From positions 184,996 through 248,995 of the forward strand of contig NZ_LT635450.1 in NCBI RefSeq assembly GCF_900120005.1: a stretch of 64,000 bases of DNA. The letters run 5' to 3'. The notes under the pieces are model-generated. The model was not told where the DNA came from. It saw nothing but the letters and a program-made list of their open reading frames with translations, and searched no databases. Shown piece by piece: positions 35,688 to 54,193 of the stretch (position 1 is the first letter of the stretch; the number at the start of each line of letters is the position of its first letter). Source of the DNA: Holdemania sp. Marseille-P2844 (GTDB lineage Bacteria; Bacillota_I; Bacilli_A; Erysipelotrichales; Erysipelotrichaceae). The position numbers and the translations under genes were made by a program.

Positions 35688-35933
35688 TTATCCCTCCCTT
35701 TCCCACGGCCATGGACTATTGATCCAATCCCAGCGGCGTCCGCGGCTGTCGCGGTTGGTCAGCGGACCGCAGACGCGATTGTATTCCTCCGCCGCTTTGC
35801 GGCGCAGGCCGGTAACATAACGGTAATAGCTCAGCGCGACTTCGTTTTGCGGATGGGTGTCCAGAAATAAGACCGCTTCCTGAATCGCGAAATCCAGTTC
35901 CTGCAGCTCCCGCAGCATTTCATTTCTATTCAT
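35688..35933 (-). CDS. cotJB: CotJB spore coat protein
   Basis: An 81-residue protein matching CotJB: MLRELQELDFAIQEAVLFLD, then HPQNEVALSYY and a Trp-rich end (WDWINSPWPWE). The start at 35933 has AAAGGGAGG upstream, and the preceding residues of the longer frame have no homology. It overlaps the end of cotJA by 8 bases and lies 3 bases before cotJC. In B. subtilis the operon is expressed in the mother cell under sigma-E. Confidence 0.92.
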   Translation of the reverse strand: MNRNEMLRELQELDFAIQEAVLFLDTHPQNEVALSYYRYVTGLRRKAAEEYNRVCGPLTNRDSRGRRWDWINSPWPWEREG

Positions 35934-36753
35934 CCTGACAGCCTCCCTTTCCCGTAAACGGCAAGTCCAGCTCAACAAACAGCGTTCCTCTTAACAAGGC
36001 GCGCGGGCGGCTGTAGATTTCCCGTTTTCCAGTCCAGCGCTGGCGGGCGACATACGCCATTGCCAGGCTCATATCCGGGCAGCGGTGATGATTACCGCAG
36101 CCCGGACGGCCATCGTCATCCTGATCATCGGTATCATTGCCGCAGCCACAGCCGCAGCCATCACCCGGACGGTTGCCATGGTCATGATCGCCGCAGCCGC
36201 AGCCCGGACGGCCATCGTCATCCTGATCATCCGTATCGTTGCCGCAGCCACAGCCGCAGCCATCACCCGGACGGTTGCCATGGTCATGATCGCCGCAGCC
36301 GCAGCCTGGACGGCCATCGTCATCCTGATCGTCGGTATCGTTGCCGCAGCCACAGCCGCAGCCGTTGCCCGGACGGTTGCCGTGGTCATGATCGCCGCAG
36401 CCGCAGCCCGGACGGCCATCGTCATCCTGATCGTCGGTATCGTTGCCGCAGCCACAGCCGTTGCCCGGACGGTTGCCATGGTCATGATCGCCGCAGCCGC
36501 AGTCTGGCGGACATACCGGAGGCTTCGGACGGCAGCCGCAGCCCGCAGACAGGTTCACGGCCTCCTCCACAAACATTTCATCCTCCATAAAATCGGCTTC
36601 GTCAAAACGCGTGCGGAAATCATCGCTCCACCCTGCGCAATGCGGTCTGCGCGGCGGGGTCGGACGGTGTGGACGGCCGCATTCCATAGCGAAATCTTCG
36701 TCCGTTTCCATCCAGCTGCGAGGAATCCGCGGTTCTCTTCCTACGTTTTCCAT
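35926..36753 (-). CDS. cotJA: CotJA spore coat protein with a Cys/His/Asp-rich tandem repeat insert
   Basis: A 275-residue protein; ordinary CotJA is about 80 residues. Residues 220-275 are the CotJA core (MSLAMAYVARQRW, ALLRGTLFVELDLPF). Residues 1-80 are acidic and contain Pro/His/Arg stretches. Residues about 90-215 consist of four near-identical units of 32-34 residues, built from CGCGDHDHGNRPG, GCGCGCGNDTDDQ and DDDGRPG. Clusters of Cys, His and Asp suggest metal binding or disulfide cross-linking in the coat; this is inference. The ATG at 36753 is preferred because AAGGAG lies 7 bases upstream; the ATG at 36759 is too close to it. First gene of the cotJ operon. Confidence 0.82.
   Translation of the reverse strand: MENVGREPRIPRSWMETDEDFAMECGRPHRPTPPRRPHCAGWSDDFRTRFDEADFMEDEMFVEEAVNLSAGCGCRPKPPVCPPDCGCGDHDHGNRPGNGCGCGNDTDDQDDDGRPGCGCGDHDHGNRPGNGCGCGCGNDTDDQDDDGRPGCGCGDHDHGNRPGDGCGCGCGNDTDDQDDDGRPGCGCGDHDHGNRPGDGCGCGCGNDTDDQDDDGRPGCGNHHRCPDMSLAMAYVARQRWTGKREIYSRPRALLRGTLFVELDLPFTGKGGCQDE
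36101..36502 (-). repeat. Tandem repeat of 102 bp inside cotJA
   Basis: Four units start at 36101, 36203, 36305 and 36407, a period of exactly 102 bp; the last unit is 6 bp shorter. Units differ by only a few bases, so recent expansion or slippage is likely and copy number may vary among strains. The period is a multiple of three, so frame is kept. Confidence 0.9.
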
Positions 36754-36846
36754 CGACATTCTCCTTTCCGGTCAAAATCTCGTTGACCCACTGTATACTA
36801 TTGTTCCTGTATGCCGGGATCTGGGAGATCGCCAAGAAAGAAACAA

Positions 36847-39161: not shown

Positions 39162-39476
39162 ATGCGTCAGGAAGTTGTTTGTTCCCATTGTCAGAAAAGT
39201 TTTCATATCCGTCCCGGATCGCTTTTGTCGATGCGGCTGGAATGTCCGCATTGTCATGCCCGTTACAAATTATCGCTTTCCTGGATTGGCTGTGTTCTAG
39301 TGGCAATTCTCGCTGTTCTGTTTTCTGACAAGTCGCTTTGGGAAGGAATGATTTGTTTTCTGATTGCGCTTTTCGCCGTCTTCTATCTGTTTCTGCCATT
39401 TTGGCTGCAAAACGATCTGATTCGGATCAAACCGGTGAAGAATAAAACCGATCCCACCATAAAACAAGAATCTTAA
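39162..39476 (+). CDS. Zinc-ribbon membrane protein
   Basis: A 104-residue protein. Residues 1-40 form a zinc ribbon with two CxxC pairs (CSHC and CPHC, with HARY after the second). Two membrane helices follow (about 43-57 and 65-85) and then a short basic cytoplasmic tail. GGAGGG lies 9 bases upstream. It probably belongs with the membrane protein four bases upstream, and a terminator follows. Proteins of this type are common, with no assigned role. Confidence 0.65.
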   Translation: MRQEVVCSHCQKSFHIRPGSLLSMRLECPHCHARYKLSLSWIGCVLVAILAVLFSDKSLWEGMICFLIALFAVFYLFLPFWLQNDLIRIKPVKNKTDPTIKQES

Positions 39477-39481
39477 AAAAG

Positions 39482-39507
39482 CCGCTGGCATGTCAGCGGT
39501 TTTTTTT
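39482..39507. terminator. Terminator between convergent operons
   Basis: CCGCTG-GCATGT-CAGCGG followed by eight T on the plus strand and A-rich sequence before it, so it can serve both the two-gene plus operon and the eight-gene minus operon. Confidence 0.9.
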
Positions 39508-41371
39508 ATTTATTCAATTCGCACCGGTCAATCAACTCCCGGCTGTCAACGGCATAGGTTTCCAGGACCAGCTGATTCCCGGAAATGGTAATCAGCGAAA
39601 CTGTCGCTTCCTGTTTAAGAATGCGGTAAGCGAGATACGCGGCCGGATTATCCTTAAGCTCATAGAACTTGCTTCCGGATGGGGTGCCGCCGGAAACATA
39701 GAGCGTTTCGCCGCTGCGTTTGTCCCCATCCGCCCGGCCGGTGGCCGTTTCGCCCTGCATCAGCAAAGAGCGGCAGTACACATGATCGTGTCCTGAAAGC
39801 ACGACGTCGACGTTCAGGTCAGAAAAAGCCTGCGCATAGGCCTCGCGGGCAGCCATGACCTTTTCATCCGCAGAGCGATCCTTGCCGCCAAAGAGCGAAT
39901 AGTGCATCGTGACGATGACCCAACGCGGTTTGTGCCGCGTGATCGTCTGGCTGAGTTTATCCAGATGTGCCTGCGTATCCGTGTTCATACAGTTCAAGGA
40001 GTAGAACAAGATATCGCCGTAATCATAATAGAAATCTGATCCGTTCTTCAGCCGGTCAAACTGGCTGTCGAGCAGGTCGGTATTGCTCTCGTGGTTGCCG
40101 ATGTTGATCGTAACCGGAATTTGTCTCAACGCGGCCGGACTGCGGAAGGCGTTATATTCCTCCAGCGCTTTCTCGTTGTCGCTGCTGTTGACCTGATCGC
40201 CGGCAGTCAAAATAAAGCTGAGGTCCGGCTGCAGCTGCAAGAGTGTATTGACCGCTTTCTCCCATCCAGCCTGATTCTCCTTAAGATGCTCCGTCCGGAT
40301 CTGAACGTCGCCGACAAACCCGAAAGTAAGCGGCGCGGCCGGCCGGACTTCAAACGAGAAGACTTCCGAGCTGAGATTGTGCTGCAAATCGACGATTTGA
40401 TACACCAGCGGCTGGCCCGGAGGCAGGTTGCTCAGCTTGCCATGATAGCTGAACGCGCCGCCGACGCCGGTTTTCCGGCCACCCATCAGCTTCCGGCCAT
40501 CCGGGGTGCGCAGCGCGCTTTTATCCGTGCCCTGCGCCCAGATCAGCTCGTAGGTTCCTTTTTTATCCGTCAGCCAGTTGACGATGACCTCGTCGTTCTT
40601 TGAACCCTGTTCCAGAATCAGTCCGGACAGATCGAGCGTCTGACTGAGCGAGGTTTCGCTGGAGGTTTCCAGACTTTTCAGATCGAAATAAATATCCGAA
40701 CTGGTCTGGTCGCGCTGATGCAGCTCAACCGCCAGAACGTTGCGTCCCGGCTTCAGCGAATTCAGATTGCTGATAACAAAAATATCGTTTTCTACTTCAC
40801 CGACGCGGGCGGAAGAACCATACGGATTTTCCGCGGTATACCCGCCGTCCGGAATATTCGAGGCATAGATCAGCTCGCCGTTAAGATACATCATCACGGC
40901 GTCGTCATAACGAAGCTTACCGGTCAGGCACCGGACATTCCCCAGATCTCCGACTTCAAATTCCGTGCGGAAATAATAAACCGGAATCGCCCGCTGATCC
41001 GCTAAAGCATAGTTCAGCAGATTGCGCGGCGCTTTTCGGTCAACCATTTTTTTCAACTGACCATAATAGGAACCGAATGTACCGGTCCCGCTCTTCCAGG
41101 CGGAATCGTCGTAATCCGGCTCAGTCCACCGCAGACTTGCCGAAGGATCGGGATTTTCTCCCTCATCCCAATAGCGCCAGGATGTTCGGCCGCTTTCCAC
41201 CAGCGTGACCGTGCGTTCCTGCGCGATCGTTTTCAGCGTGCCGTTGCGTTCCTTGTCCGTATAGCTCTGCCGCGTCAAAACGCCATAGACCAGAACAAAA
41301 CCGATCAGAAACAAAGCGAGCAGCGTACCGAAAATCAGCTTGCGCTCTTCCCGGCGCGAATTGTTGTTCAT
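39506..41371 (-). CDS. Membrane-anchored metallophosphoesterase
   Basis: A 621-residue protein with an N-terminal membrane anchor (about 14-33) and the rest outside the cell. Residues 55-240 form a beta-rich, carbohydrate-binding-like region (SWRYWDEGENP, DDAVMMYLNGELIYASN). A fibronectin-like segment (245-345) then precedes a calcineurin-type phosphoesterase. The metal motifs are GDVQ, AGDQVN, GNHESN, VTMHYS and SGHDHVY, in the correct order. The layout resembles purple acid phosphatases and PhoD-like exported enzymes. Its ATG overlaps the stop of the GT2 gene (ATGA), and it is the last of eight coupled genes. It may trim phosphate or phosphodiester groups from the surface polymer; this is inference. 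Confidence 0.85.
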   Translation of the reverse strand: MNNNSRREERKLIFGTLLALFLIGFVLVYGVLTRQSYTDKERNGTLKTIAQERTVTLVESGRTSWRYWDEGENPDPSASLRWTEPDYDDSAWKSGTGTFGSYYGQLKKMVDRKAPRNLLNYALADQRAIPVYYFRTEFEVGDLGNVRCLTGKLRYDDAVMMYLNGELIYASNIPDGGYTAENPYGSSARVGEVENDIFVISNLNSLKPGRNVLAVELHQRDQTSSDIYFDLKSLETSSETSLSQTLDLSGLILEQGSKNDEVIVNWLTDKKGTYELIWAQGTDKSALRTPDGRKLMGGRKTGVGGAFSYHGKLSNLPPGQPLVYQIVDLQHNLSSEVFSFEVRPAAPLTFGFVGDVQIRTEHLKENQAGWEKAVNTLLQLQPDLSFILTAGDQVNSSDNEKALEEYNAFRSPAALRQIPVTINIGNHESNTDLLDSQFDRLKNGSDFYYDYGDILFYSLNCMNTDTQAHLDKLSQTITRHKPRWVIVTMHYSLFGGKDRSADEKVMAAREAYAQAFSDLNVDVVLSGHDHVYCRSLLMQGETATGRADGDKRSGETLYVSGGTPSGSKFYELKDNPAAYLAYRILKQEATVSLITISGNQLVLETYAVDSRELIDRCELNK

Positions 41372-42798
41372 CCTTCACTCCCTCCTTCCTGCGTTTCCCG
41401 GCGGTTATGTGTATACCGCTTCAGATCGCCCCAGACGTTCTTCTTGCGGCGATAGCCGATCAGCGCGTTCATCCGCACCAGCATCAGAATAAACCGGAGG
41501 CCGACCAGCTCAAAGCCGCTTAAGAGAATTGTGCGGACAACGTCGAGAAAGGTCAGCCGGATATGCCGGGTATGGATCTGCGTAAAGAACGCGATGACCG
41601 TCAGTAGACAGCCGAAACCGGCATACACCGCGAAGAATAAAAGCATAAACGGAACGTTGATGAGATTGACGAAATACGATAAAACAATCGTAAACAAACC
41701 GAAGACTTCAATATACGGCGACATCAGCTCATACAGCCAGAAATACAGAAACGAAATCGTTCCCATCAGACCGTATTCCTTCTTGCCGATCGCATACCGG
41801 TAACGCGTCAGACTTTCAAACAAGCCGATATGCCAGCGCCGCCGCTGCTTCATCAGATCGAGCAGATTCCCCGGTCCCTGCGTCCAGCAGATCGCATCCG
41901 GGGCATAGCGGATGCTGTAATCAAGATGATTCGCACGGCAGAAAACATGCAGCTTGACGACCAGCTCCATATCCTCGCCCATCGTCGAAGGATCGTAGCC
42001 GCCAGCCAGAATCACCATCTTTTTCTGAAACAGACCGAATGCGCCGGAAATGATCAGATTACCGTTGAAGTGATCCATAAAAATCCGCGAAGCCAGAAAC
42101 GAACGATCGTATTCCAGCACCTGCATCGCGACGATGATCCGCTTCGGCAGGGTATATTTTGTGACCTCGCCGTCGACCATTTCAATGCCGTTGGAGATTC
42201 GCACCTGGCCGCCGCAGGCTACGACCTTATCGTTTTCCAGCACCGGCTTGGCGATCTCAAACAACGAATCCTTTTGAAGCATCGAATCGGCGTCCATGCA
42301 GATAAAGTACGGAAAGCGGGATACGTTGATGCCCATGTTCAGCGTATCCCCCTTGCCGCCGTTTTCTTTCAGGATCAGCGTCAGCTGAATCTTGTTGGAT
42401 TTCGCTTCGTAAATCGCGGTTTCCGGCTTGCAGCGAAGCTGACGGCGGATCGGCCGCTCGATCTTGCGCATCTGGAAATAGTCGATCATCCGCTGCGCGG
42501 TTTCATCGGTGGATCCGTCGTCGATCACCACGATTTCAAACAGCGGATAATCCTGTCTCAGCAGCGTGCAGACGGTGTCCACAATCGTGGTTTCCTCGTT
42601 GTGGGCGGGAACCAGAATGCTGATCGGGATAAAAAACTTCCGCTTGAGGTTATTTTTCAGCTCGTCGTCGCGGCGTTTCTGATACAAATCCACCGAGCCG
42701 ACAATCACTGACAAAAATAAAAACGTACTGTATCCGAATAAATAGAGAACGAAGAAAACATCGACGCAGAACAGAAAGGTTTTTACAAATTCAATCAT
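41368..42798 (-). CDS. Processive family 2 glycosyltransferase (BcsA/PgaC-like)
   Basis: A 476-residue membrane glycosyltransferase. One N-terminal helix, a cytoplasmic GT-A domain (55-330) and about four C-terminal helices, as in synthases that extrude beta-linked polysaccharides. Signature residues: VIDDGSTD, MDADS, GED (catalytic region) and QRRRW, the Q-x-x-R-W motif of processive enzymes. No PilZ domain is present. The ATG at 42798 is chosen because it overlaps the upstream stop (ATGA) and has GGGGGA 7 bases before it. It should build the polymer handled by this operon. Sugar identity (glucose, N-acetylglucosamine or other) cannot be read from sequence. Confidence 0.9.
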   Translation of the reverse strand: MIEFVKTFLFCVDVFFVLYLFGYSTFLFLSVIVGSVDLYQKRRDDELKNNLKRKFFIPISILVPAHNEETTIVDTVCTLLRQDYPLFEIVVIDDGSTDETAQRMIDYFQMRKIERPIRRQLRCKPETAIYEAKSNKIQLTLILKENGGKGDTLNMGINVSRFPYFICMDADSMLQKDSLFEIAKPVLENDKVVACGGQVRISNGIEMVDGEVTKYTLPKRIIVAMQVLEYDRSFLASRIFMDHFNGNLIISGAFGLFQKKMVILAGGYDPSTMGEDMELVVKLHVFCRANHLDYSIRYAPDAICWTQGPGNLLDLMKQRRRWHIGLFESLTRYRYAIGKKEYGLMGTISFLYFWLYELMSPYIEVFGLFTIVLSYFVNLINVPFMLLFFAVYAGFGCLLTVIAFFTQIHTRHIRLTFLDVVRTILLSGFELVGLRFILMLVRMNALIGYRRKKNVWGDLKRYTHNRRETQEGGSEG

Positions 42799-44036
42799 TC
42801 TGCATTCCCCCATTTCTGCAAGGCTGGAAGCGCTTCTTCCGATGAATCCGCTTCAATGACTGCGCTTAGAATTTCATTCGATGACCCCCTCGGACTTTTC
42901 GCCATTCGATTTTCTGCGACCCTCAGTTCGCCCTTTTCATCCAGCTGAAGCAGTCCGGCGCTCAGCGCCTTGTAGCGCAGCATGTCCCGGCCGTAAGAAT
43001 CCTTCAGCTGCCGGATCATTTCCAGAATGGCCAGCGGCTTCGTCAGCTGCAGCAGCGAATCGGAAGCATTGTCGCGGACATACCAGTTATCGCTCTGCAC
43101 GCCGACCAGCAGCGCCTTGACGGTTTCCATCTCGGGATAACTCTCCAGGGAAGCCGCCGCGATCGCCGCATATTCCCAATCCTGTTTTTCCCAGTCGATG
43201 ACAGTCTGACGCAGCACCGTTCCGGCCGGACGGTAAGGATATTTGCGGAAATAGCGCATGACGGCAAAGGTCACTTCCCGATCCAGCTCCGTTTGACTCA
43301 GCAGCGGAAATAAGGTTTCCCGAAAATTCCCGGAAACCATCCGGATAAAATCAATGAACGCAACCTGATAATGCGGTGTGAATTCATCCCAGTTTTGCCA
43401 CAAAGCCTGCGCCAGCTGCTCCCGGTCGCCATGAAATTCCAGCAATCCGTCGGTCACCAGCTTGCGGCTGTGTTCGATTTCATGGCGTCCCATGACGCGA
43501 TACGCTTTGACAATGTGATCAATACTTCCGCACTGATACAAGGCGCCCAACGCATTCTCCCGGCAATAAATCGAAGCTTGCGCCGTCAGCTGGATCATCG
43601 CCGTCGCGATCGGATCATTGCGGCTTTGTCCGCACAGTCTAAAACGTGTAACAAGATAGGCAAAGTAGGAACGTTCCATTACGCTTTTTTTCATCGTCCC
43701 GTCAATCAGCTCCGCAAACACCGGCTTCAGCGTCGGCAGCCAGGCCTGCAGCAGTTTTACCGTCAGTGGATTCTGTTCCAGCACGTCGACGGTTCCTTCC
43801 AGCACAACCAGATGATGTGTGTTCTTCAGATCTTTCTTTATTTTCTCATCCACGTTGGCGGCCGTCTTCTCGGGAAATAACAACAAGCGTTGTAAGCGGC
43901 GGGCCTGGTTTTGGATTTGTTTCTCCGTCCGCCGCTGCATCCACTTGTTTTTTCCCAGATAAAACAGATTGTACGCCAGCATGCACAAACACAGCGTCAT
44001 GTAAACGTAAATCAGATAGTCAATCCGGATTACCAT
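42795..44036 (-). CDS. Membrane-anchored HEAT-like repeat protein
   Basis: A 413-residue protein with one N-terminal membrane helix (about 6-28) followed by basic cytoplasmic sequence. The rest is almost entirely helical pairs resembling HEAT/armadillo repeats (for example YCRENALGALYQCGS, DNWYVRDNASDSLLQL, SYGRDMLRYKALSAGLLQL). It carries no catalytic motif. It is coupled to the glycosyltransferase by an ATGA overlap and lies 10 bases after the glycoside hydrolase gene. A HEAT partner placed directly before the synthase suggests a scaffold or regulatory subunit of the synthase complex; this is inference. Confidence 0.72.
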   Translation of the reverse strand: MVIRIDYLIYVYMTLCLCMLAYNLFYLGKNKWMQRRTEKQIQNQARRLQRLLLFPEKTAANVDEKIKKDLKNTHHLVVLEGTVDVLEQNPLTVKLLQAWLPTLKPVFAELIDGTMKKSVMERSYFAYLVTRFRLCGQSRNDPIATAMIQLTAQASIYCRENALGALYQCGSIDHIVKAYRVMGRHEIEHSRKLVTDGLLEFHGDREQLAQALWQNWDEFTPHYQVAFIDFIRMVSGNFRETLFPLLSQTELDREVTFAVMRYFRKYPYRPAGTVLRQTVIDWEKQDWEYAAIAAASLESYPEMETVKALLVGVQSDNWYVRDNASDSLLQLTKPLAILEMIRQLKDSYGRDMLRYKALSAGLLQLDEKGELRVAENRMAKSPRGSSNEILSAVIEADSSEEALPALQKWGNAE

Positions 44037-44046
44037 GCATGCCGCC

Positions 44047-46227
44047 TCACTTTCCCGCCCAGATATCCTGCATCGCGTAATAGCCTTGTTTCAGACGTTC
44101 ATGCGAAGTCGGATGCCGGCCCCAGCCTTGAAGCGGAAGATCGGTCATCGGAATCGGCGTTGCTTCATCAGCGGCCAGTCCGACTCCGGCATAAATCTCA
44201 TGGATCTTCAGCCCTTCGATCCCGTAATGCTCATAGTAATCGTCGTGAATCATCATTTCCGACGGATTGAGGAAATTCAGCAGCGACCAGGGCAGACGGA
44301 TTTCAATCGCATCGCCCCGGATCATAAAATCGGCCAGCGAATCAAAGTCCGGATTCTCCGGATTCGCGTTGCCATGGCGAAGCTGACCGGTATTGTAGGT
44401 TTCCGCCTTATCCGCTTTCGTATTGGCCAGCTCGTCATGCGGATCGTCAGGAATCTGCAGCACCAGATTGATGTCGACAAATTCCGAGGTATCCTTTGCC
44501 GGGGCGTTGAGATAAGCGTCTTCGAAATATACGCGATGGGAATAGATCGCCCGCAGCGCTTCGTAGCGCTTCTGCACGATCAGCTTACTGTTTTCCTTCC
44601 CGTCCAGGATCAGCACAAAGTCGGCCGGCCGCTCAAACGACCGCGGGATTCCATCGCAGTGGGTACTGCCGGTCTTCGGCGTCGTATCAAATGGAATCCA
44701 GAGCTTCTCTGTCTGCGGATCATAATTTTCTTTGTTGACGTACAGATACAGATATTTTTCATCGTATTTATAAGCCAGCGAAAGTTGTCCGGTGGGCGTG
44801 TCCGTCAGCTGGACTTGATCGTCCGCGGTCCATTCGCTCACGTCGCCGTCGACATAACAGACACTTTTCTCCTCGCCCGGATCGAAGGCGAGCACGCCGA
44901 AGAATTGTTCGTTGGTCTGAACGTCGCTCCAATACGGTGTTTTCGTCAAATCGGTATAGGCCATCGTGTTCCACGTCCGCTTAAACCATTCATCCTGCCA
45001 CGTGAAGACGATCGATCCCGCACAGCCGGCGCTCATGATATCCTGATAACAGGTTTTCAGCGCTTCTGCCTGATCCGCTTCGGACATGCCGCCCTGGGCG
45101 CGGTGGGTGTTGCGGTCGCTCTGCGCCCGCCCGCGTGAGCTCGGCACCCCGAATTCCGCGATGACAACCGGCATCGTGTGATACGCGTTGAGCGTCGTCA
45201 GATAAGCCTGATAGGAATTGAAGACGCCGTCAGCGTCGACAAACTGCCGCTTGTTTTCAACATCAATGTCCATGACGTCCATAAAGCCATAGTAATCGGG
45301 ATAGTAGGGATAGACGTGGTAGGAAGCAAACTGCCCCGACAGAAACCGGTCGGTTGTCTGGATATGCTCGACGTCGACCTGTTCAAATTTACGGAAGTAG
45401 TATTCGACCAGCGAATCCCATTCAAGCGGGTCCGTCGTCGGCCAGTTGGCAAACGCGATCAGCCGCTGGGCTTTGTAGGTCTGCGTCTCATATTCGATGA
45501 TTTTATCGCCGACCTGCGCCAGCATCGCCTCAAACGGCGACGCATCGTCAGTGGTCGTCATGTACTTCCCATGATATTGATTCTTTTTGTCCTGCATGTG
45601 ATCCGTGAAGGCGACCGTCGTGTCTTCCCATTCCACACCCAGAATATACCCCAGAACCCATTGCGAAATATCATGGTTGTAAGAGCCGCTGCCCAGACCC
45701 TCGCCTAAGGAAAACCGTTTGTTTCCATGGATGATATCGACTAACGTCCGGCTGTCCTGGATCATCGTGTTCATGAAGTCCGGATCGTAGGCGTCGCGGT
45801 GGGAGAACAGCGTGTAATCATTCACCCACAAGCCGTGGATCAAATAGAGCGGTTGTTCGCGGTCCTTGTTGTATTCCCAAAACGCATTGTAGAAATCATC
45901 CTGAAGCAGCGTGTAGACACGGATGCAATTCGCGCCCATCGCCTGAATTTCGGCGAACCACCGCAGATAGGTTTCCTTATCAATCGCGTAATCCGTCGCA
46001 AAATGGCCCGGAATCCCGCTGCCCAGATTGGCGCCGCGGATCTCGAAAGGTTCCATGCCCTGCCCCTGATCGACAAGAATCGTCTTGCCCTCAACTTTTG
46101 TAAACGTCTCCACCGACGTTTTCCGCAGGCTTTCCCATTGAAAGGTCAGTCCGATGCGGGAAGACAGAAACAACCCGCCGGCGGCGAGCATCACGATCAC
46201 GGCGCAGGCGATAATAAATTTTTTCAT
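44047..46227 (-). CDS. Exported TIM-barrel glycoside hydrolase with a C-terminal CBM9/DOMON-like domain
   Basis: A 726-residue protein with an N-terminal signal anchor (7-23). Residues 40-450 form a clan-A-type (beta/alpha)8 hydrolase: FEIRGANLGSG, MGANCIRVYTLLQDDFY, LGYILGVEWED with a likely acid/base glutamate, and VVIAEFGVPSSRG with the nucleophile glutamate. Residues 470-715 are a beta sandwich starting VDGDVSEWTADDQVQL, typical of CBM9/DOMON-like carbohydrate-binding modules. A glycanase beside a processive synthase is a recurring pattern in exopolysaccharide operons (for example BcsZ, CcsZ). Substrate not identified. It lies 21 bases after cotH and 10 before the HEAT gene. Confidence 0.78.
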   Translation of the reverse strand: MKKFIIACAVIVMLAAGGLFLSSRIGLTFQWESLRKTSVETFTKVEGKTILVDQGQGMEPFEIRGANLGSGIPGHFATDYAIDKETYLRWFAEIQAMGANCIRVYTLLQDDFYNAFWEYNKDREQPLYLIHGLWVNDYTLFSHRDAYDPDFMNTMIQDSRTLVDIIHGNKRFSLGEGLGSGSYNHDISQWVLGYILGVEWEDTTVAFTDHMQDKKNQYHGKYMTTTDDASPFEAMLAQVGDKIIEYETQTYKAQRLIAFANWPTTDPLEWDSLVEYYFRKFEQVDVEHIQTTDRFLSGQFASYHVYPYYPDYYGFMDVMDIDVENKRQFVDADGVFNSYQAYLTTLNAYHTMPVVIAEFGVPSSRGRAQSDRNTHRAQGGMSEADQAEALKTCYQDIMSAGCAGSIVFTWQDEWFKRTWNTMAYTDLTKTPYWSDVQTNEQFFGVLAFDPGEEKSVCYVDGDVSEWTADDQVQLTDTPTGQLSLAYKYDEKYLYLYVNKENYDPQTEKLWIPFDTTPKTGSTHCDGIPRSFERPADFVLILDGKENSKLIVQKRYEALRAIYSHRVYFEDAYLNAPAKDTSEFVDINLVLQIPDDPHDELANTKADKAETYNTGQLRHGNANPENPDFDSLADFMIRGDAIEIRLPWSLLNFLNPSEMMIHDDYYEHYGIEGLKIHEIYAGVGLAADEATPIPMTDLPLQGWGRHPTSHERLKQGYYAMQDIWAGK

Positions 46228-46248
46228 GCAGGCTCTCCTCCTTCCGGC

Positions 46249-47796
46249 TTAATGGTTATACTTCTTGACCGCGGATTCATGACAATACTGCCTGAGCACT
46301 TCGATATGCTCATCCAGCCAGGCCAGCCGCTGCAGATACGCGTCATGAAACTGTTTCACCGCCGCTTCATAGGACCGCAGATTCTTTTCATCCGGCAACA
46401 ATTTATTGCGTTTGTCCAGATTTTCCGGATCAAAGCTGTAGCCCCAGACCGCAAAATTCCGGTCGACGGCCGGTCCCAGATAATCGACGACTTCCTGGAT
46501 ATAGGCGGATACCTGTTCATCGCTCAGAATCCCTGCGCGCAGCTGGCGATACCGGTAGATGACCTGATTGATAAAGTCCTCGTCCTTGATCAGCATCGTG
46601 AACCACGGCGCCTGTACGGAGACGAATTGGCGGATCAGAAAGTCATCGTCGGAGCTGTCGGAAACATTGCCCAGACTGTTGTTGAAATCCCAGACGACCG
46701 GTTTGAATTTCCCGTTGACGTCTTTGTAGAAGAAGGTCGAAAGGTTGCCGGTGTCATGTTGCACAAAGACTTCCATAAGAATGAAGTAATCAACGAATTC
46801 GTCGATGTCGATGAAATTTTTATAACCGTAGCGCGAGCTGTCGTAATCGAAAGAATACAGCGCTTTTTCAAACCGGCTGAGATCGCGTTCAATAAAGTCC
46901 TTCAACGGAGGCGTCAGCGCTTCGCTGCCCGGATAGCGGATATCGAAGAACGCACTTTTACGCAGAATCTGCACGTATTTTGTAAAATTATCCGCTTTGC
47001 TGCGCGGGTCCGGCTGGGCCGCATTGTCCAGCTCCACGATATAACCGGTAACGTTGCGGGTATTATTCGGCTTTTCGATTTCGATCCGGCCCTTGCCGGT
47101 GCTGACGGTTTCCATCATCACGTACACGCCGCGGTATTCACCGTTGATCACCACTTCGCAAAACCGCACGTCCGGCGCATAGTCCATCAGCTCGCCCGCC
47201 AGGTTCATCGCGACATAGTTGCGCATTAACGTCTTGTCCAGAAACGGCCCATGCAGCGCCCAGTCATGATCCGCTTCCATGCCCATGATTGATACATTTT
47301 TATTTTCTCCGTCGTGGTGGATTGTCTTGATCGCAAAAGACTGTTTATCAAACCAGCGCGAAGTGTTGCCGCGCACGCGGATCCGAATCTGTGTCTTCAG
47401 CGACGACGGATCCTGAAGCGTGTTCAGCTTATCATCCTGATTGATAATTTTCATATTTGCGACCAGAAACTCCTCGCCGGTTGACGTCATCGTCATCTTG
47501 CGGTGGGAGCGATCGTCGCCATAATAAGGCACGCCGGGAATTGCTTCGTCCGTTTCGATCACCACCAACGGCAGATGCGTGCTCAGCTGGTCCACGTCGA
47601 CGGCCGCTTCATCATATTGATATTTCGAGATTTCCGTCTCCCGAATGCAGTCCAGCGCCGCGGATGGATCGTAGGCGGGCGCCGCTTCCCGGTGCTGATG
47701 AATCCGTGTCTGCATTTTTCCAAAGGTCAGCTGGGCTGTACCGCTGACCACGACCACAGCCGCCAGCGTCAGCCAGGCCATTGTCCGTTTACGCAT
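46249..47796 (-). CDS. cotH: CotH-family kinase-like exported protein
   Basis: A 515-residue protein with an N-terminal membrane anchor (about 7-25). It matches the CotH fold: LVVIETDEAIPG, RIRVRGNTSRWFDKQSFAIK, LDKTLMRNYVAMNLA, CEVVINGEYRGVYVMMET, YIVELDN and VWDFNNSLGN, the last with the metal-binding Asp-Phe-Asn. B. subtilis CotH is a protein kinase that phosphorylates spore coat proteins, while homologues in other operons have unknown targets. Here it is fifth from the end of an eight-gene operon with a polysaccharide synthase, and is anchored outside. Its substrate may be an extracellular protein or a polymer; this is not determined. Confidence 0.88.
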   Translation of the reverse strand: MRKRTMAWLTLAAVVVVSGTAQLTFGKMQTRIHQHREAAPAYDPSAALDCIRETEISKYQYDEAAVDVDQLSTHLPLVVIETDEAIPGVPYYGDDRSHRKMTMTSTGEEFLVANMKIINQDDKLNTLQDPSSLKTQIRIRVRGNTSRWFDKQSFAIKTIHHDGENKNVSIMGMEADHDWALHGPFLDKTLMRNYVAMNLAGELMDYAPDVRFCEVVINGEYRGVYVMMETVSTGKGRIEIEKPNNTRNVTGYIVELDNAAQPDPRSKADNFTKYVQILRKSAFFDIRYPGSEALTPPLKDFIERDLSRFEKALYSFDYDSSRYGYKNFIDIDEFVDYFILMEVFVQHDTGNLSTFFYKDVNGKFKPVVWDFNNSLGNVSDSSDDDFLIRQFVSVQAPWFTMLIKDEDFINQVIYRYRQLRAGILSDEQVSAYIQEVVDYLGPAVDRNFAVWGYSFDPENLDKRNKLLPDEKNLRSYEAAVKQFHDAYLQRLAWLDEHIEVLRQYCHESAVKKYNH

Positions 47797-47807
47797 GGAT
47801 CAGACCT

Positions 47808-48485
47808 CTAGCTGCTGATATCATCGTCCTGGGCGACGATATTCACATACTGGACATGTTCGATCTGATATAATTCCTCGTCAATGCTCGAGGTCTTCCT
47901 GAGGTTCTTTTCATAGGTTTTCCGCGGAATTTCATAGATCAGTTCGATCGTTTCGCGGGTTGTGTTCTTGACGCGCAGATCCAGGCGGCCGTCAAAATAA
48001 TGCGTGATAACCGACATGATCCGCTCCTCCGTACTGCGTGCGCCGCGCACGATCAATAGCATCCTGTTTTCATTCTTGATCCGCCCCAGCACCAACAGCA
48101 CCAGAAAAACCCCGGCGGAACCCAGCCCCGCCGTCATATAATCGCCGACGCCGCAGGACAGACCGGCGACGATCGCCCAGAAGATATAAACGGTGTCGCG
48201 GGAATCCTTGATCGCCGTTCTGAAACGCACGATCGACAGCGCGCCGACCATGCCCAGCGACAGCGCGACGTTGTTGCCGATCGCCGTCATGACGACTGTC
48301 GTCAGCACGGTCAAAACGACCAGACTGACGTTGAATTTGCGGCTGTAAACGGTTCCGGCATGCGCCAGATAATAAGAAAGATAAATGACGAAGCCCAGCA
48401 CGATCGCGATCAGAATCTGCGCCAGAATCTGCCCGGCGTTCAGCGCCTCGATCTGCTGCATTAAATTCGATAAATAAGAACTCAC
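47808..48485 (-). CDS. DUF4956 membrane protein
   Basis: A 225-residue protein with about four or five membrane helices in the first 150 residues (LAQILIAIVLGFVIYLSYYL; the conserved LSLGMVGALSIVRFRTAIKD; IFWAIVAGLSCGVGDY; GVFLVLLVLG), then a soluble C-terminal domain of about 80 residues. GALSIVRFRT is the family hallmark. It lies 11 bases before cotH and 17 bases after the VTC gene. DUF4956, VTC and CotH genes are often neighbours, which suggests one complex for making or exporting a phosphate-containing polymer. The biochemical role is unknown. Confidence 0.87.
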   Translation of the reverse strand: MSSYLSNLMQQIEALNAGQILAQILIAIVLGFVIYLSYYLAHAGTVYSRKFNVSLVVLTVLTTVVMTAIGNNVALSLGMVGALSIVRFRTAIKDSRDTVYIFWAIVAGLSCGVGDYMTAGLGSAGVFLVLLVLGRIKNENRMLLIVRGARSTEERIMSVITHYFDGRLDLRVKNTTRETIELIYEIPRKTYEKNLRKTSSIDEELYQIEHVQYVNIVAQDDDISS

Positions 48486-48502
48486 TCGATGTTACCCCCT
48501 TT

Positions 48503-49213
48503 TTAATAAAATTCAGTGTATCGCAGCCCGATCCGCCGCGCCATGCAATACTTGCTCGCGGACAGTTCGCTCTGATTGCAGCTGCGGAGAATGTCGCGCA
48601 CATACGTCAGCAGGAAATGATTGTATTTCACTTCCAGAATGGTTTTCCACGGGTCCAGCATCGGCGCCATCGCCAGCTCCCCGTCAAAAATATCATAATG
48701 AAACTCGTTGGCCCGGATCTCACTGTCCAGCGTGATGCGGATGCTGTTCTCCGGCAGCACATACGCCTTGCGGCGATATTCGACCACCGTTTTCGGCCGG
48801 TAATGCTCACGGTTTAAAATGGCGTAACATTCCGCCGCGAACGCTTCCTTGTATTTTAACAGCGGACTGAAATCCCCTGCGATCAGCCGCACGGCGTCTT
48901 CGCACCTGATGGGCAGCGAACGCTTGAGCTGATTGGAACCCTGTTTCTGCTTCATTTCCAGAAAGGCAGTTTTATCCTGAGGATGATACACACGCAGACG
49001 CATTTTCCGCCGTTCCTCCACGCCGTCCATCTTTGCGTTGAAATCCCGGTCGCTCAGCGTATCGAAATATAACGATCGCACCCGATATCCCCCCTGCACA
49101 AGATCGCCGTTATGGGTATCCTGATGCAGCAGCGCGTCCAGCTGGCCCTCGAAACGAGCCCGCTGCGTCGCTGAAATCAGAAATTTCCGTTCCTGCCGCA
49201 GTACCTCGTTCAT
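48503..49213 (-). CDS. VTC-domain (polyphosphate polymerase-type) protein
   Basis: A 236-residue cytoplasmic protein with the VTC domain of the triphosphate tunnel metalloenzyme superfamily. Tunnel residues are visible: ERKFLI at the start, YRVRSLYFDT, RLRVYHP, FLEMKQK and ILEVKYN, together supplying the alternating basic and acidic residues. In yeast Vtc4 this domain makes polyphosphate from ATP; in bacterial operons its product is not established. Its ATG overlaps the stop of the upstream TIM-barrel gene, and it lies 17 bases before the DUF4956 gene, likely its membrane partner. Confidence 0.88.
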   Translation of the reverse strand: MNEVLRQERKFLISATQRARFEGQLDALLHQDTHNGDLVQGGYRVRSLYFDTLSDRDFNAKMDGVEERRKMRLRVYHPQDKTAFLEMKQKQGSNQLKRSLPIRCEDAVRLIAGDFSPLLKYKEAFAAECYAILNREHYRPKTVVEYRRKAYVLPENSIRITLDSEIRANEFHYDIFDGELAMAPMLDPWKTILEVKYNHFLLTYVRDILRSCNQSELSASKYCMARRIGLRYTEFY

Positions 49214-50088
49214 TGACTCTCCTCCATCATTTCAATCAGCGGCTTCGACCAGTGATAATCATGAACGATGCTGATCAATGGAAATGCCTGATCGACTTGT
49301 TTCCAGGCCGCCTCTGCCGCGGCCAGCCCCTTGTTGCGGTAAGTCTTGTCTTCCGTCAGACCGTGCTTGCCCACCTGCTGAAATTCCAGGATGCAGTGCA
49401 GAACCTTCCCATATTTCTTTGTAAGCTGGGCTTCCGTTTCCAGTTTCTCGACTTCCGCCCCGCAGTCATAATCCATGACCGCCACCTCATCGCAGCCGTC
49501 CCGGATCAGGATTTCCAGAAGCTCCGTCAGGCCCTGGTCATCATAATGGCGGGGAATGCAGGCGATGAAGATCAGATCGTGCTTCTGCGCGTAGCGGTAA
49601 GCTGCGATCATCCCGGAAACATAGGTTTCCATGTGTCCGGCAGGATCTTCCTTCCAGCGCGAACGAGTGTACGGCTCCACGTCGACCATCACGCCGACAA
49701 GCTGTTCCGCCGGTGTGACCTGATCGTTATACCGGACGAGTTCTTCCAGATATGCAATCAGGGATGCACCGTCGGCCTCATAGCCCCAATCGGTTTCGCC
49801 AACCAGCGCGTAAGTTTTCACCTTTGCCTGATGCAGATGACGGACAAAAGCGGCTGTCGTTTTGCGGTCAACCGGAACGCTCAGTTCCTGAACCCAGTCG
49901 GTAATCTGAAATCTGCCGATCAGCTCGTCAACGTCTTTTCGATCAACCACCCGCTCCTCCTGCCATTCAAACATTCCCCGGCGCAGCGGCGGGCTTTTGC
50001 TTTCCATCGGGCGAACAACGAGGAATGAGGCCGCAGCGCCGATCCCCAGAATCACGAATGCCGCGATTTTCCATGTCTGTTTTTTCAT
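49210..50088 (-). CDS. Exported TIM-barrel-like protein, first gene of the polymer operon
   Basis: A 292-residue protein with an N-terminal signal anchor (about 7-27). The body looks like an alpha/beta barrel: strands such as VKTYALVGETDWG, QLVGVMVDVEPYT, LIFIACIPRHYDD and DEVAVMDYD alternate with helices, and acidic residues at strand ends (VEPY, MDYD) suggest a glycoside-hydrolase-like active site. No family is recognised with confidence. The ATG at 50088 follows GGGGGAATTTG; a TTG one codon upstream is less likely. The stop overlaps the VTC start (ATGA). The operon promoter must lie in the 470-base stretch upstream. Confidence 0.68.
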   Translation of the reverse strand: MKKQTWKIAAFVILGIGAAASFLVVRPMESKSPPLRRGMFEWQEERVVDRKDVDELIGRFQITDWVQELSVPVDRKTTAAFVRHLHQAKVKTYALVGETDWGYEADGASLIAYLEELVRYNDQVTPAEQLVGVMVDVEPYTRSRWKEDPAGHMETYVSGMIAAYRYAQKHDLIFIACIPRHYDDQGLTELLEILIRDGCDEVAVMDYDCGAEVEKLETEAQLTKKYGKVLHCILEFQQVGKHGLTEDKTYRNKGLAAAEAAWKQVDQAFPLISIVHDYHWSKPLIEMMEESQ

Positions 50089-50558: not shown

Positions 50559-51629
50559 TTAGCGGCGTGAAGCCGCATTTTCTTCATTTCTCCGGTGCAC
50601 TTCGACGCGAGTCGGCTGCAGCGGATAGCTGTAACGCAACAGGATGTGCGGACAACCGTTTGTATGTTTCTGATAAAAAGTCCGGGTGATCCGATCCGCG
50701 AGCTTATCTGCGTTATCAAGGGTTATATCAGAAACCATAACCAGATACTGACAACTGCTGTACTGCGTAAAAACATCGCTCATCCGCAGATGATCATGAA
50801 TAATCACCCCCAGAATATCCATTTCCTCATCGCGGCGCACCAATGCCGGAAAGTCGCCCTTGTTGTCCGTCAGAGTGAATAAAAGAAGAAAGGCCGATTC
50901 CTGAGAACGGCACATTTTCCGTTCGGCAAAGCGGTAAATTGCTTTAAACGTTTCATAATCCTGACAGAAGGAACCCGGGCGGGCGTGACTTTCGTGCATT
51001 TGTGAAGCGATTAACTTCATATCGAGCGTCACTCCGCCGTTTTCTTCCTGCCGCTTTAACTCCATCTTGCGGATATTGCGGACATGTTTTTTCTGTATGA
51101 TCTGCTGATCCGCCCGATCGTACATTCTCTGATACGTATCGCCAGGCATGGAAGCCGTTTGAAAAATCGTGACGTCCAATCGCAGATTCGGGCATTCGCG
51201 AAGACGTATATGCCGCAGTCGCTGGCGAAGCTGCGTGCACAGCTGCTCAGCTTTCTTTTCATCCTGTCCTCTGAGCAATACTGTGAATTCATCGCCGCCC
51301 ACACGGCTGATCAGACTGTCGGGCGGCAGCATTTTTATCAACACATAACCAACGTTCTGCAGGACCTGATCGCCGGTGATATGACCATACCGGTCGTTCA
51401 CCTGCTTGAAATAATCCAGATCCATCATGATTAAAATTCCTGTATTTTTATCAAGCAGCCATTCATTGCACAGCCGTTCCATGGCTTTGCGATTATACAG
51501 ACCCGTCAGCCAGTCATGTTCCGCGTCGTATTGCAGCGCCTGATTTTCCTCTTCAAGCTGTTCCCGGGACTTGACGTTGCGTTTCACAGTCCGGATTTTT
51601 TGATCAGATTCCTGTACTGTTGGATTCAT
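50559..51629 (-). CDS. Diguanylate cyclase with a second, degenerate GGDEF-like domain
   Basis: A 356-residue cytoplasmic protein. A short coiled-coil-like segment (about 15-30) leads to a complete GGDEF domain (35-190): DLDYFKQVNDRYGH (metal site) and RVGGDEF (active site), with no RxxD inhibitory site at the normal position. Residues about 225-340 form a second domain in which the GGDEF site reads TQYSSCQYLVMV. This half resembles the end of the SARP-like regulator at 23469-24632. The start at 51629 has AAGGAG upstream, while the frame extension to 51695 has no homology. It probably makes c-di-GMP and lies next to the polymer operon in the same orientation. Confidence 0.88.
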   Translation of the reverse strand: MNPTVQESDQKIRTVKRNVKSREQLEEENQALQYDAEHDWLTGLYNRKAMERLCNEWLLDKNTGILIMMDLDYFKQVNDRYGHITGDQVLQNVGYVLIKMLPPDSLISRVGGDEFTVLLRGQDEKKAEQLCTQLRQRLRHIRLRECPNLRLDVTIFQTASMPGDTYQRMYDRADQQIIQKKHVRNIRKMELKRQEENGGVTLDMKLIASQMHESHARPGSFCQDYETFKAIYRFAERKMCRSQESAFLLLFTLTDNKGDFPALVRRDEEMDILGVIIHDHLRMSDVFTQYSSCQYLVMVSDITLDNADKLADRITRTFYQKHTNGCPHILLRYSYPLQPTRVEVHRRNEENAASRR

Positions 51630-51899
51630 ATTTATTTTTCTCCTTCTTTTCTTTCTGCGGTTGGAAAACGATGACCTCTTTAAGCTCAACGTCAAAACTA
51701 AATGCTCAACTCAAAACCACCGGTCGGGCCTGAGCCTCGCTGTAAACTCCAATCGGCAATTTTATCCTGCCTGCACCTTCAGGAACTCGGCGTATTGCGG
51801 CTTTAAATAACCATGCCGGTCTTCAAGCTCGCCTTACGCCGGCCCACGACTAAAATCCCCATCGTGATCACCTCAATTTTAATAATGTTACCACACGTC

Positions 51900-51993: not shown

Positions 51994-52761
51994 TTATTCC
52001 AGGCGGAATTCCGCCCATTCATAGCAGCAGAGATAATCGTGACGATAACTGTTGACAGCTTGCGGATCGCCGTCCAGGAAGTGATAACTGTCGCAATCCA
52101 GCCGTTCCGGAAGGATCGCGAGGCTGTTCCATGAGCGCAGCAGAATTTCTTCGATGCCCGCCGCCTGCAGCGCTTCCCGCAATCCCTTGACAACAATCCG
52201 GAAGTACCCTTTTTTACTGGCCTTAATCGAAGCATCGCCCCACAATGCGGCACAGGCGTCCGCCGCCGTCACGCTGACGCCGCGCCGGTCGATCAGATAA
52301 GCCAGCAGTTCTTTGGATTTTGCGCGTTTAAACGTGACAGGACGGCCATCCACAAAAATATCAAAGCCGCCGAAGGTCTGCACCCGCACCCGCTTTTGCC
52401 GCAGCGCTTCGCCATAGGCAAAGGTCAGTTCCCGGCGCAGAGCCTCCGCTGTGACCGGCTTTAACAAATAACCTGTCGCATGCATCTGAATCGCGCCCAG
52501 CGCGTATTGTTTATAGCTCGTGACAAAAATGATATGCGCCTGCGGACAAAGATCTTTCAATTTTTTTGCCAGCACCAATCCGTTCATACTTCCCAATTCG
52601 ATGTCCAGAAACGCGGCGTCGAAAGGATGATCACGAACATAAGCCAGCGCCTCGCTGGGAACGCCGAACGTTCGTAAGACACTGTCCGGCGCCGCTTCCG
52701 CCAGCGCTTCCTCCAGATCTTTCAGCGCGAAAGGTTCGTCGTCGACTGCGATATAATTCAT
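51994..52761 (-). CDS. Response regulator with receiver and SARP/OmpR-type winged-helix domains
   Basis: A 255-residue cytoplasmic regulator. The receiver domain (1-120) shows the acidic pair in VDDEPFAL, the phospho-acceptor in FLDIELG, the Ser/Thr in IFVTSY and the lysine in LLKPV. The output domain (130-225) is a winged helix (RVRVQTFGGFDIFVDGRPV, KELLAYLIDRRGVSV, FRIVVKGLREAL), not the LytTR domain normally paired with LytS-like kinases. The ATG overlaps the kinase stop by 4 bases, and GGAAGGAGC lies upstream of it. It pairs with the adjacent membrane kinase; targets unknown, although the direct repeats at 51900-51920 are a candidate site. Confidence 0.88.
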   Translation of the reverse strand: MNYIAVDDEPFALKDLEEALAEAAPDSVLRTFGVPSEALAYVRDHPFDAAFLDIELGSMNGLVLAKKLKDLCPQAHIIFVTSYKQYALGAIQMHATGYLLKPVTAEALRRELTFAYGEALRQKRVRVQTFGGFDIFVDGRPVTFKRAKSKELLAYLIDRRGVSVTAADACAALWGDASIKASKKGYFRIVVKGLREALQAAGIEEILLRSWNSLAILPERLDCDSYHFLDGDPQAVNSYRHDYLCCYEWAEFRLE

Positions 52762-54044
52762 AACGTTGCTCCTTCCTTGGGAATCATGATGGTCGCCACA
52801 GTCCCTTTGCCCGGCGTACTTTGCAAGGTCAGCGTTCCGCCGCATAACATCCCCAGCCGCTCCCTTACATTTTTAATTCCGATATGAGATTGATTGTCTT
52901 CTTCAAATTTATCAGAGAAACCCAAACCATCGTCAGCGACGATGACAAGGTAAGCGTCTGGCGTTTCCTCAGTCCGGATCGTAACGGTGCCTCCTTCTTC
53001 CCTTCTCAATACGCCATGGCGCACGGCGTTTTCCACAATCGGCTGCAGCGTGAGCGAGGGAATCGAAAAATCCCGCGCTGTAATTTCATAAACCACTTTA
53101 AGCCGGTTCTGAAAGCGCTGACGTTCCAGTGACAGATAATTTTCCGCATGGAGAAGCTCCTGTTCAAAAGGAATCGGCGCCTTGCTTTCCAGCGAATCCA
53201 TATTTCCGCGCAAAAACAATGAAAAATCCCGGATTGCCGCTTTCGCTTGATGGGGATCCACATCGCAAAGCTGGCAGATTGTTGTCAACGTGTTGTATAG
53301 AAAGTGCGGCTGGATTTGCGAAAGCATGATTTCAACCCGGGATTCCGCCAATTCTTTTTCCTGCTGCCGGATCAGCAGATCACGCTCGGACTGAATATTG
53401 ACAAAGATAAACAACAGCGCCAGCGTTACGCCGACATTCACCACCGCGATCCCGCGAAGAAACATCTGCGACGCCCCGGCGCCAAGCGGAATAAAGATAT
53501 ACAACAAAAAGAAGATCACTTCACGGCGGATGAGCTTTTTTCGATTCAGTACGACCAGCCAGGTAAACGACAAATAACAGAACAGCGGAACCAGCTGGGA
53601 TATCAAAAACAGCGAACCCCGCTGATAGCCGGCGGCGGTAATGGTAAAAATCGCTCCGGTCAGCGGACTGATCAGCGCGAAGAAAATCTGTACGCCGCAC
53701 AACAGCGTGATACTCCGCAAAAAGATCGTTCTTACAGGATGCGTCAGTTTCAAATATTCATCGATGTAACGGGCAAAAAAATACAGGACAAAGGCGGAGC
53801 TGACATAATACAGGACAACCAGCAAGATTGCCGCTGTCATCATCAACGGAGTTGTGATATCCCGGAAGCACCAGTCGCCCAGATCACCGATAATCATCAA
53901 TCCGTTGGAAACGCTGACCCCCAGAAAATAGCGGTTTAATTTCTGATGCCAACGATGATCGTTTCCAAGATAGATGATCGGGATGAGCGATAAGATCAGG
54001 CAGAAAATGTCCAGCGCAATATTGGCAATCAAGAAGTTATCCAC
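52758..54044 (-). CDS. LytS-like membrane sensor histidine kinase
   Basis: A 428-residue kinase. Seven predicted membrane helices fill residues 5-215. A short coiled linker (SERDLLIRQQEKELAESR) leads to the His_kinase domain with QIQPHFLYNTLTTI (phospho-histidine) and a HATPase domain (LTLQPIVENAVRHGV, DDGLGFS, GIKNVRERL). This is the LytS/YehU-type (HPK7/8) arrangement. The GTG at 54044 is chosen because AGGGGGA lies 6 bases before it; the GTG at 54050 abuts the ribosome binding site. Ligand not identifiable. It forms an operon with the winged-helix response regulator. Confidence 0.87.
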   Translation of the reverse strand: MDNFLIANIALDIFCLILSLIPIIYLGNDHRWHQKLNRYFLGVSVSNGLMIIGDLGDWCFRDITTPLMMTAAILLVVLYYVSSAFVLYFFARYIDEYLKLTHPVRTIFLRSITLLCGVQIFFALISPLTGAIFTITAAGYQRGSLFLISQLVPLFCYLSFTWLVVLNRKKLIRREVIFFLLYIFIPLGAGASQMFLRGIAVVNVGVTLALLFIFVNIQSERDLLIRQQEKELAESRVEIMLSQIQPHFLYNTLTTICQLCDVDPHQAKAAIRDFSLFLRGNMDSLESKAPIPFEQELLHAENYLSLERQRFQNRLKVVYEITARDFSIPSLTLQPIVENAVRHGVLRREEGGTVTIRTEETPDAYLVIVADDGLGFSDKFEEDNQSHIGIKNVRERLGMLCGGTLTLQSTPGKGTVATIMIPKEGATL

Positions 54045-54193
54045 AGCCACTCCCCCTGTCTCTTCTATTGAATTGAGACCATTATAACAGAGTGCGCCAA
54101 AAAAGAAAATGCAGATATTCTGACCTGAGAAAGCGGTTTCACGCTGCGTCGTCTCCGTGAAAGGCCGCGGCTGTCCGGCTGCTTGATCGCCGC

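Follow-up and report, generated by a model that had tools for sequence, protein, structure and literature searches.

The 64,000-nucleotide stretch of DNA analysed here (the window) comes from Holdemania sp. Marseille-P2844 and carries, at 39506-50088 on the minus strand, an operon of eight densely packed open reading frames (ORFs). This operon probably represents a synthase-dependent exopolysaccharide system that is linked to cyclic di-GMP (c-di-GMP), produces a beta-linked glucan or aminoglucan and contains a polyphosphate/phosphoryl module. Six of its genes, encoding a VTC domain, DUF4956, CotH, a glycoside hydrolase, a HEAT-repeat protein and a family 2 glycosyltransferase (GT2), are a real system, to which the TIM-like gene and the phosphoesterase gene are accessories. 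From the first gene to the last, with Pfam E values in brackets, the operon comprises:

49210..50088 (-): TIM-like exported protein of 293 amino acids (aa), accessory, first or last in the operon where present (22/87 loci); no Pfam match
48503..49213 (-): VTC domain with triphosphate-tunnel polyphosphate polymerase fold, cytosolic (1.6e-41)
47808..48485 (-): DUF4956 membrane protein, MgtC-like, with 5 predicted transmembrane helices and a C-terminal ACT-like domain (1.5e-11)
46249..47796 (-): CotH kinase-fold protein with an N-terminal membrane anchor, predicted to be extracytoplasmic (1.1e-57; also matches 5jd9)
44047..46227 (-): exported glycoside hydrolase, GH157/GH72-like, with a clan GH-A fold and a C-terminal beta-sandwich; no Pfam match
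42795..44036 (-): HEAT-repeat protein with an N-terminal transmembrane segment (weak HEAT_2 match)
41368..42813 (-): processive GT2 polysaccharide synthase with DDGS, DxD, GED and QxxRW motifs, without PilZ (2.7e-24)
39506..41371 (-): exported calcineurin-like phosphoesterase, optional accessory (Metallophos, 7.5e-14)
39499-39482 (-): intrinsic terminator of the operon, directly 3' of the last stop

A conserved six-gene core

The hydrolase was used as the sole query on 84,980 species genomes, and the best 80 of at least 557 confirmed relatives were analysed, so that the sample is biased towards close relatives. VTC loci were gathered separately from relatives and from the phylum, with 74 VTC loci lacking the hydrolase as controls; further counts cover 87 hydrolase-bearing loci. 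The order VTC, DUF4956, CotH, hydrolase, HEAT, GT2 was found on one strand in 68 of the 80 hydrolase loci. Most of the remaining 12 are interrupted by contig ends, and in locus L147 the first two genes share one reading frame. Because the loci were chosen by the hydrolase alone, the other five families count as independent evidence. The HEAT protein is present in 85, CotH in 84 and GT2 in 83 of the 87 hydrolase loci, the TIM-like protein in 22 and the phosphoesterase in 5. Carriers of the six-gene core span Clostridia, Bacilli, Paenibacillus and Actinomycetota, and the hosts include Blautia, Flavonifractor, Eisenbergiella, Anaerotignum, Paenibacillus agaridevorans and metagenome-assembled genomes (MAGs) of Eggerthellaceae/Gordonibacter. 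The congener Holdemania massiliensis has the same eight genes, with a hydrolase identity of 88%.

A first-pass annotation, made from the sequence alone, had described eight minus-strand genes at this position and in this order, in agreement with the ORF coordinates and the Pfam matches. It had also described gaps of 10-21 bp and ATGA overlaps. These are indeed found at VTC-DUF4956 (17 bp), DUF4956-CotH (11 bp), CotH-hydrolase (21 bp) and hydrolase-HEAT (10 bp) as well as at the TIM/VTC (ATGA) and GT2/phosphoesterase junctions (overlaps of 4), while an overlap of 19 between HEAT and GT2 had been overlooked. It had further proposed a search for the co-occurrence of all eight families, which holds for the ordered core and not for the TIM-like protein or the phosphoesterase. 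The latter, seen there as a partner within the system, was rejected as such at 5/87 loci; a phosphoryl-related module as part of the operon was supported.

The first start codon of the operon lies at 50088 and its last stop at 39506; seven genes begin with ATG and one with GTG, and GAGGGAGGGGG sits ahead of the first ATG. Promoter-like matches in the operon region showed no excess over shuffled sequences. An N-terminal hydrophobic anchor was found on CotH, the hydrolase, the TIM-like protein and the phosphoesterase; VTC has none. For the TIM-like protein neither Pfam nor the PDB gave a family, and its PDB matches to APOBEC3G (5e-4) were judged spurious.

The synthase, its hydrolase and the putative phosphoryl module

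The catalytic motifs of the GT2 are invariant in 79/79 relatives and hydrophobic segments are predicted, which bears out the earlier call of a processive enzyme. The HEAT protein is probably a cytosolic scaffold of this synthase.

The presence of a glycanase had also been noted, and the modelled structure is consistent with a cognate hydrolase of GH157-like fold. In the model (predicted local distance difference test score, pLDDT, 84.6), the best fold match is the GH157 endo-beta-1,3-glucanase LaGH157 (9g4n), with a Z score of 32.9 and 2.4 A over 311 residues; the next family is GH2 at Z 27.9. The catalytic E224 of LaGH157, at the nucleophile position, aligns with E358 of the window enzyme, and both E199 and E358 are invariant in 84/84 sequences. 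Modelled fold and catalytic glutamate position thus appear common to the two enzymes, which differ in that only ~18% of residues are identical in the aligned part and the window hydrolase has an extra N-terminal anchor and another C-terminal domain. A single-sequence search of the PDB with the hydrolase gave no match, and weak matches to GH72 beta-1,3-glucanosyltransferases were found for 19 of 50 hydrolase members (best 1.1e-5). A characterised GH157 enzyme cleaves linear beta-1,3-glucan (PMC10229575). The hydrolase fold and the GH72 leads point to a beta-1,3-glucan, and the enzyme suggests that the polymer resembles beta-1,3-glucan or is partly aminated.

VTC matches the yeast Vtc4 profile (7.3e-8). 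Its tunnel residues K10, R72, R74, K88, R148, R159, E194, K196 and K221 are each conserved in 77/77 sequences, and R72 and R74 align with yeast R264 and R266. The other Vtc4 tunnel residues matched are K200, K281, R361 and R373. Yeast Vtc4 requires R264 and R266 to synthesise polyphosphate (PMC8749416). For the C-terminal alpha-beta domain of DUF4956, the top two fold hits are C-terminal domains of MgtC (Z 9.6 and 9.4), and a profile comparison with one MgtC by hhalign gave an E value of 1.1e-5 and a probability of 82. As its score lies under the Pfam MgtC cut-off (16.7 against 31.4 bits), DUF4956 is only remotely related to MgtC and does not count as a filed member of that family. Its residues R87-F88-R89 are invariant in 77/77 core loci. 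The putative catalytic aspartates of CotH, aligned to 5jd9, are conserved in 79/80 (D348) and 80/80 (D370) sequences; D348 presumably corresponds to D228 of Bacillus subtilis CotH.

VTC and DUF4956 also occur together outside this system, being adjacent in 72 of the 74 control loci. In these loci CotH is the third gene 27 times and a Cthe_2159 carbohydrate-binding protein 24 times, and no locus has both; examples of the latter in the place of CotH are L061:10984-12879, L062:6971-8722, L063:9604-11190 and L107:7442-8905. The VTC-DUF4956 module furthermore lies beside a PilZ GT2 (L081), beside a BcsB-like/GT2/GGDEF set (L107) and beside Pel (PMC7112168). This distribution supports the view of a portable module that serves several synthases.

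Links to c-di-GMP

A linkage to c-di-GMP, overlooked by the first-pass annotation, is seen across the family. GGDEF or EAL proteins were found in 66 of 87 hydrolase loci compared with 4 of 74 controls, and a same-strand GGDEF gene upstream of VTC in 28/79 compared with 0/74. In most loci the gene after the GT2 codes for a protein whose N-terminus is solute-binding-like and which also has a degenerate GGDEF domain and an EAL domain. By alignment, the catalytic residues of the operon EAL copies are intact in ~80%, and hardly any copy retains the GGDEF motif. In L144 the GT2 and this protein form a single frame of 1109 aa; the locus is from a MAG, and the fusion possibly arose by erroneous loss of a stop codon.

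With Rfam, 19 loci gave a c-di-GMP-I riboswitch and 2 a c-di-GMP-II riboswitch. Aptamer models of our own, one built from the 19 and one from the two (E <= 0.01 for type I), gave 30 c-di-GMP-I candidates in the hydrolase set, mostly strong and weakest in L198, L170 and L202, and 3 c-di-GMP-II candidates. Hence, a c-di-GMP riboswitch lies upstream on the coding strand in 33 of 80 hydrolase loci (~40%). The type I model, the only one searched there, had no matches among 80 comparison loci, the 74 controls included. The aptamer ends within about 90 nucleotides of VTC in nearly all cases (210 in L149), negative distances being a product of long ORF starts; because this distance is short, control of translation initiation is suggested. 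At L144:190-278 a leader riboswitch is followed by a deacetylase as the first operon gene.

In the window, the genes upstream of the operon form a cassette of histidine kinase (HK), response regulator (RR) and GGDEF protein:

50559..51695 (-): diguanylate cyclase with intact GGDEF motif (Pfam 7.7e-32), upstream of the operon on the same strand
51994..52845 (-): response regulator, upstream of the cyclase
52758..54050 (-): sensor histidine kinase of the same cassette

The order HK-RR-GGDEF-VTC recurs in L177 and L185, and the cyclase is probably the c-di-GMP source of the window operon. c-di-GMP elements are abundant in the family, and the window copy shows the upstream GGDEF gene only. About 8 kb downstream of the synthase, a 999 aa protein at 30361-33360 (-) has GGDEF and EAL profile matches.

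Further observations concern the surroundings of the operon and its second copy in the same genome (3.68 Mb). A hairpin at 39475-39506, with T runs on both strands, lies between the operon and a convergent 104 aa gene (39162-39476), and the two appear to share a bidirectional terminator. At 35926-36759 (-) a 277 aa protein with tandem Cys/His/Asp-rich repeats (CGCGDHDHGNRPGNGCGCG...) is encoded. The second operon copy (L068:2700-10364, contig 14) is preceded by collagen-like and BclA_C genes and by another GT2. The hydrolase frame of this copy is interrupted mid-gene, giving two frames; the break could be genuine or an assembly error.

Proposed mechanism, alternatives and known systems

The gene set, its order, motifs, fold relationships and c-di-GMP elements were computed; polymer identity, topology and every phosphoryl step we infer. 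In the exopolysaccharide system that we favour, the GT2 would polymerise and extrude a beta-linked polymer, the HEAT protein would scaffold or regulate the synthase from the cytosol, and the exported GH157/GH72-like enzyme would trim or transglycosylate the nascent chain. Across the family, control by c-di-GMP would be exerted through 5' leader riboswitches, an upstream cyclase and a GGDEF-EAL protein beside the synthase; of these elements, the window copy retains the upstream HK-RR-cyclase cassette only. VTC and the MgtC-like DUF4956 would together synthesise polyphosphate in the cytosol and either couple it to the membrane or transport it across, and membrane-anchored CotH may phosphorylate the polymer or a wall protein from ATP or polyphosphate. 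It is possible that the polymer carries a phosphate decoration. In a more specific version, VTC and DUF4956 would be a bacterial polyphosphate synthase-translocase, the exported polyphosphate would be the phosphoryl donor for CotH on polysaccharide or wall proteins where ATP is absent, and the module would be common to several unrelated exopolysaccharide synthases; this proposal is speculative and we regard it as unlikely.

Several observations weigh against the system as outlined. No riboswitch was detected in the window by Rfam or by our own aptamer models, the window operon has no EAL gene, and neither PilZ nor another known c-di-GMP receptor was identified in the core. The nearest curated model of the GT2 is PgaC/IcaA with 140.7 bits against a cut-off of 422, and because this score is so far below the cut-off, the product of the GT2 was not assigned. 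Polysaccharide deacetylases, present in 8 of the 87 hydrolase loci and 0/74 controls and listed for the Clostridium perfringens locus NELoc-2 in a survey (PMC11677781), suggest an N-acetylated sugar, which is not easily reconciled with a relative of beta-1,3-glucanases. The polymer is thus left as a beta-linked glucan or aminoglucan.

The phosphoryl module can be read in other ways. VTC-DUF4956-CotH might regulate the synthase through protein phosphorylation, with CotH as an extracytoplasmic protein kinase and polyphosphate not a product. Regulation of Pel by CotH phosphorylation has been proposed by Whitfield et al. (PMC7112168), B. subtilis CotH is an ATP-using protein kinase that requires D228 (PMC7821199), and both putative catalytic aspartates are retained here. 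VTC, however, keeps the tunnel residues of a polymerase, R72 and R74 (yeast R264/R266) among them, and ATP is expected to be scarce at the site of CotH because the protein is N-terminally anchored. We regard this regulatory role as rather unlikely. The triphosphate tunnel metalloenzyme (TTM) superfamily also includes phosphatases, and VTC could instead be a TTM tripolyphosphatase or nucleotidase, with DUF4956, which is MgtC-like, sensing or lowering ATP or phosphate, so that the trio tunes the synthase to the energy or phosphate state. The specific match of VTC to the Vtc4 polymerase profile speaks against such an activity, which would also leave an exported CotH beside VTC-DUF4956 unexplained, and we consider it improbable.

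The name CotH derives from the spore coat, and the first-pass annotation had considered a spore polymer, for which the second copy downstream of collagen-like/BclA genes could be cited. Among the annotated genes, however, no spore gene adjoins the window copy. c-di-GMP elements are typical of biofilm loci, and Pel loci of streptococci that do not sporulate likewise contain CotH (PMC7112168). A spore-coat or exosporium polymer is very unlikely to be the product of the operon.

The full combination had been thought undescribed. The NELoc-2 locus of C. perfringens (CP4_0459-CP4_0468; Lepp et al. 2010, PMC2879425), compared by its published Table 4, nevertheless lists the same families with the order and sizes of the window: a 348 aa protein, VTC (232), a '226 aa tubulin', CotH (497), a 685 aa protein, HEAT (377) and GT2 (466). 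By size the 226 aa entry corresponds to DUF4956, and the window follows the NELoc-2-type order VTC, DUF4956, CotH, ~700 aa protein, HEAT, GT2. Unlike in the window, VTC-DUF4956 is doubled around a resolvase in that table. There, NELoc-2 is a strain-associated locus with the GT2 labelled chitin synthase and DUF4956 tubulin/FtsZ, and the available portions of PMC2879425 propose no exopolysaccharide role; later surveys, including PMC11677781, list the same genes.

The Gram-positive Pel locus (cotH-PPP-DUF4956-DUF4832; Whitfield et al. 2020, PMC7112168) likewise has CotH, a polyphosphate polymerase (VTC) and DUF4956 beside a synthase-dependent system, whereas synthase, HEAT protein and hydrolase of the window differ; by Pfam, no Pel component was found in the eight window genes, with PF09587 (PGA_cap) matching below threshold only. 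The clostridial ccsZABHI operon (PMC7710045) shares a GT2 synthase with a cognate hydrolase. That the ccs cellulose operons differ had already been noted in the first-pass annotation. They have a PilZ GT2, CcsB, GH5 and an MBOAT/DHHW acetylation pair, none of which was matched in the window operon (PilZ, MBOAT and DHHW by Pfam), and the window operon has VTC, DUF4956, CotH and HEAT. With the yeast VTC complex (Vtc4) the window VTC shares the polymerase domain and catalytic residues, and coupling to a membrane partner is used as an analogy; it lacks SPX, and its membrane partner, DUF4956, resembles MgtC and has no shown relation to Vtc1. Beyond the NELoc-2 list and the Pel accessory set, no literature treating the six-gene system as a polysaccharide synthase was found. 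New here are the recognition of the six genes as a conserved system, its link to c-di-GMP, the GH157-like character of the hydrolase and the relation of DUF4956 to MgtC.

At least dozens of Bacillota, and also some Actinomycetota, carry the system; many of these bacteria live in the gut and some in soil, and the c-di-GMP riboswitches provide the system with a testable regulator. It gives context to the unexplained NELoc-2 locus, which is associated with C. perfringens strains of poultry disease. As VTC-DUF4956-CotH occurs with different synthases, a single enzyme assay would inform several systems and the phosphate source of exported kinases.

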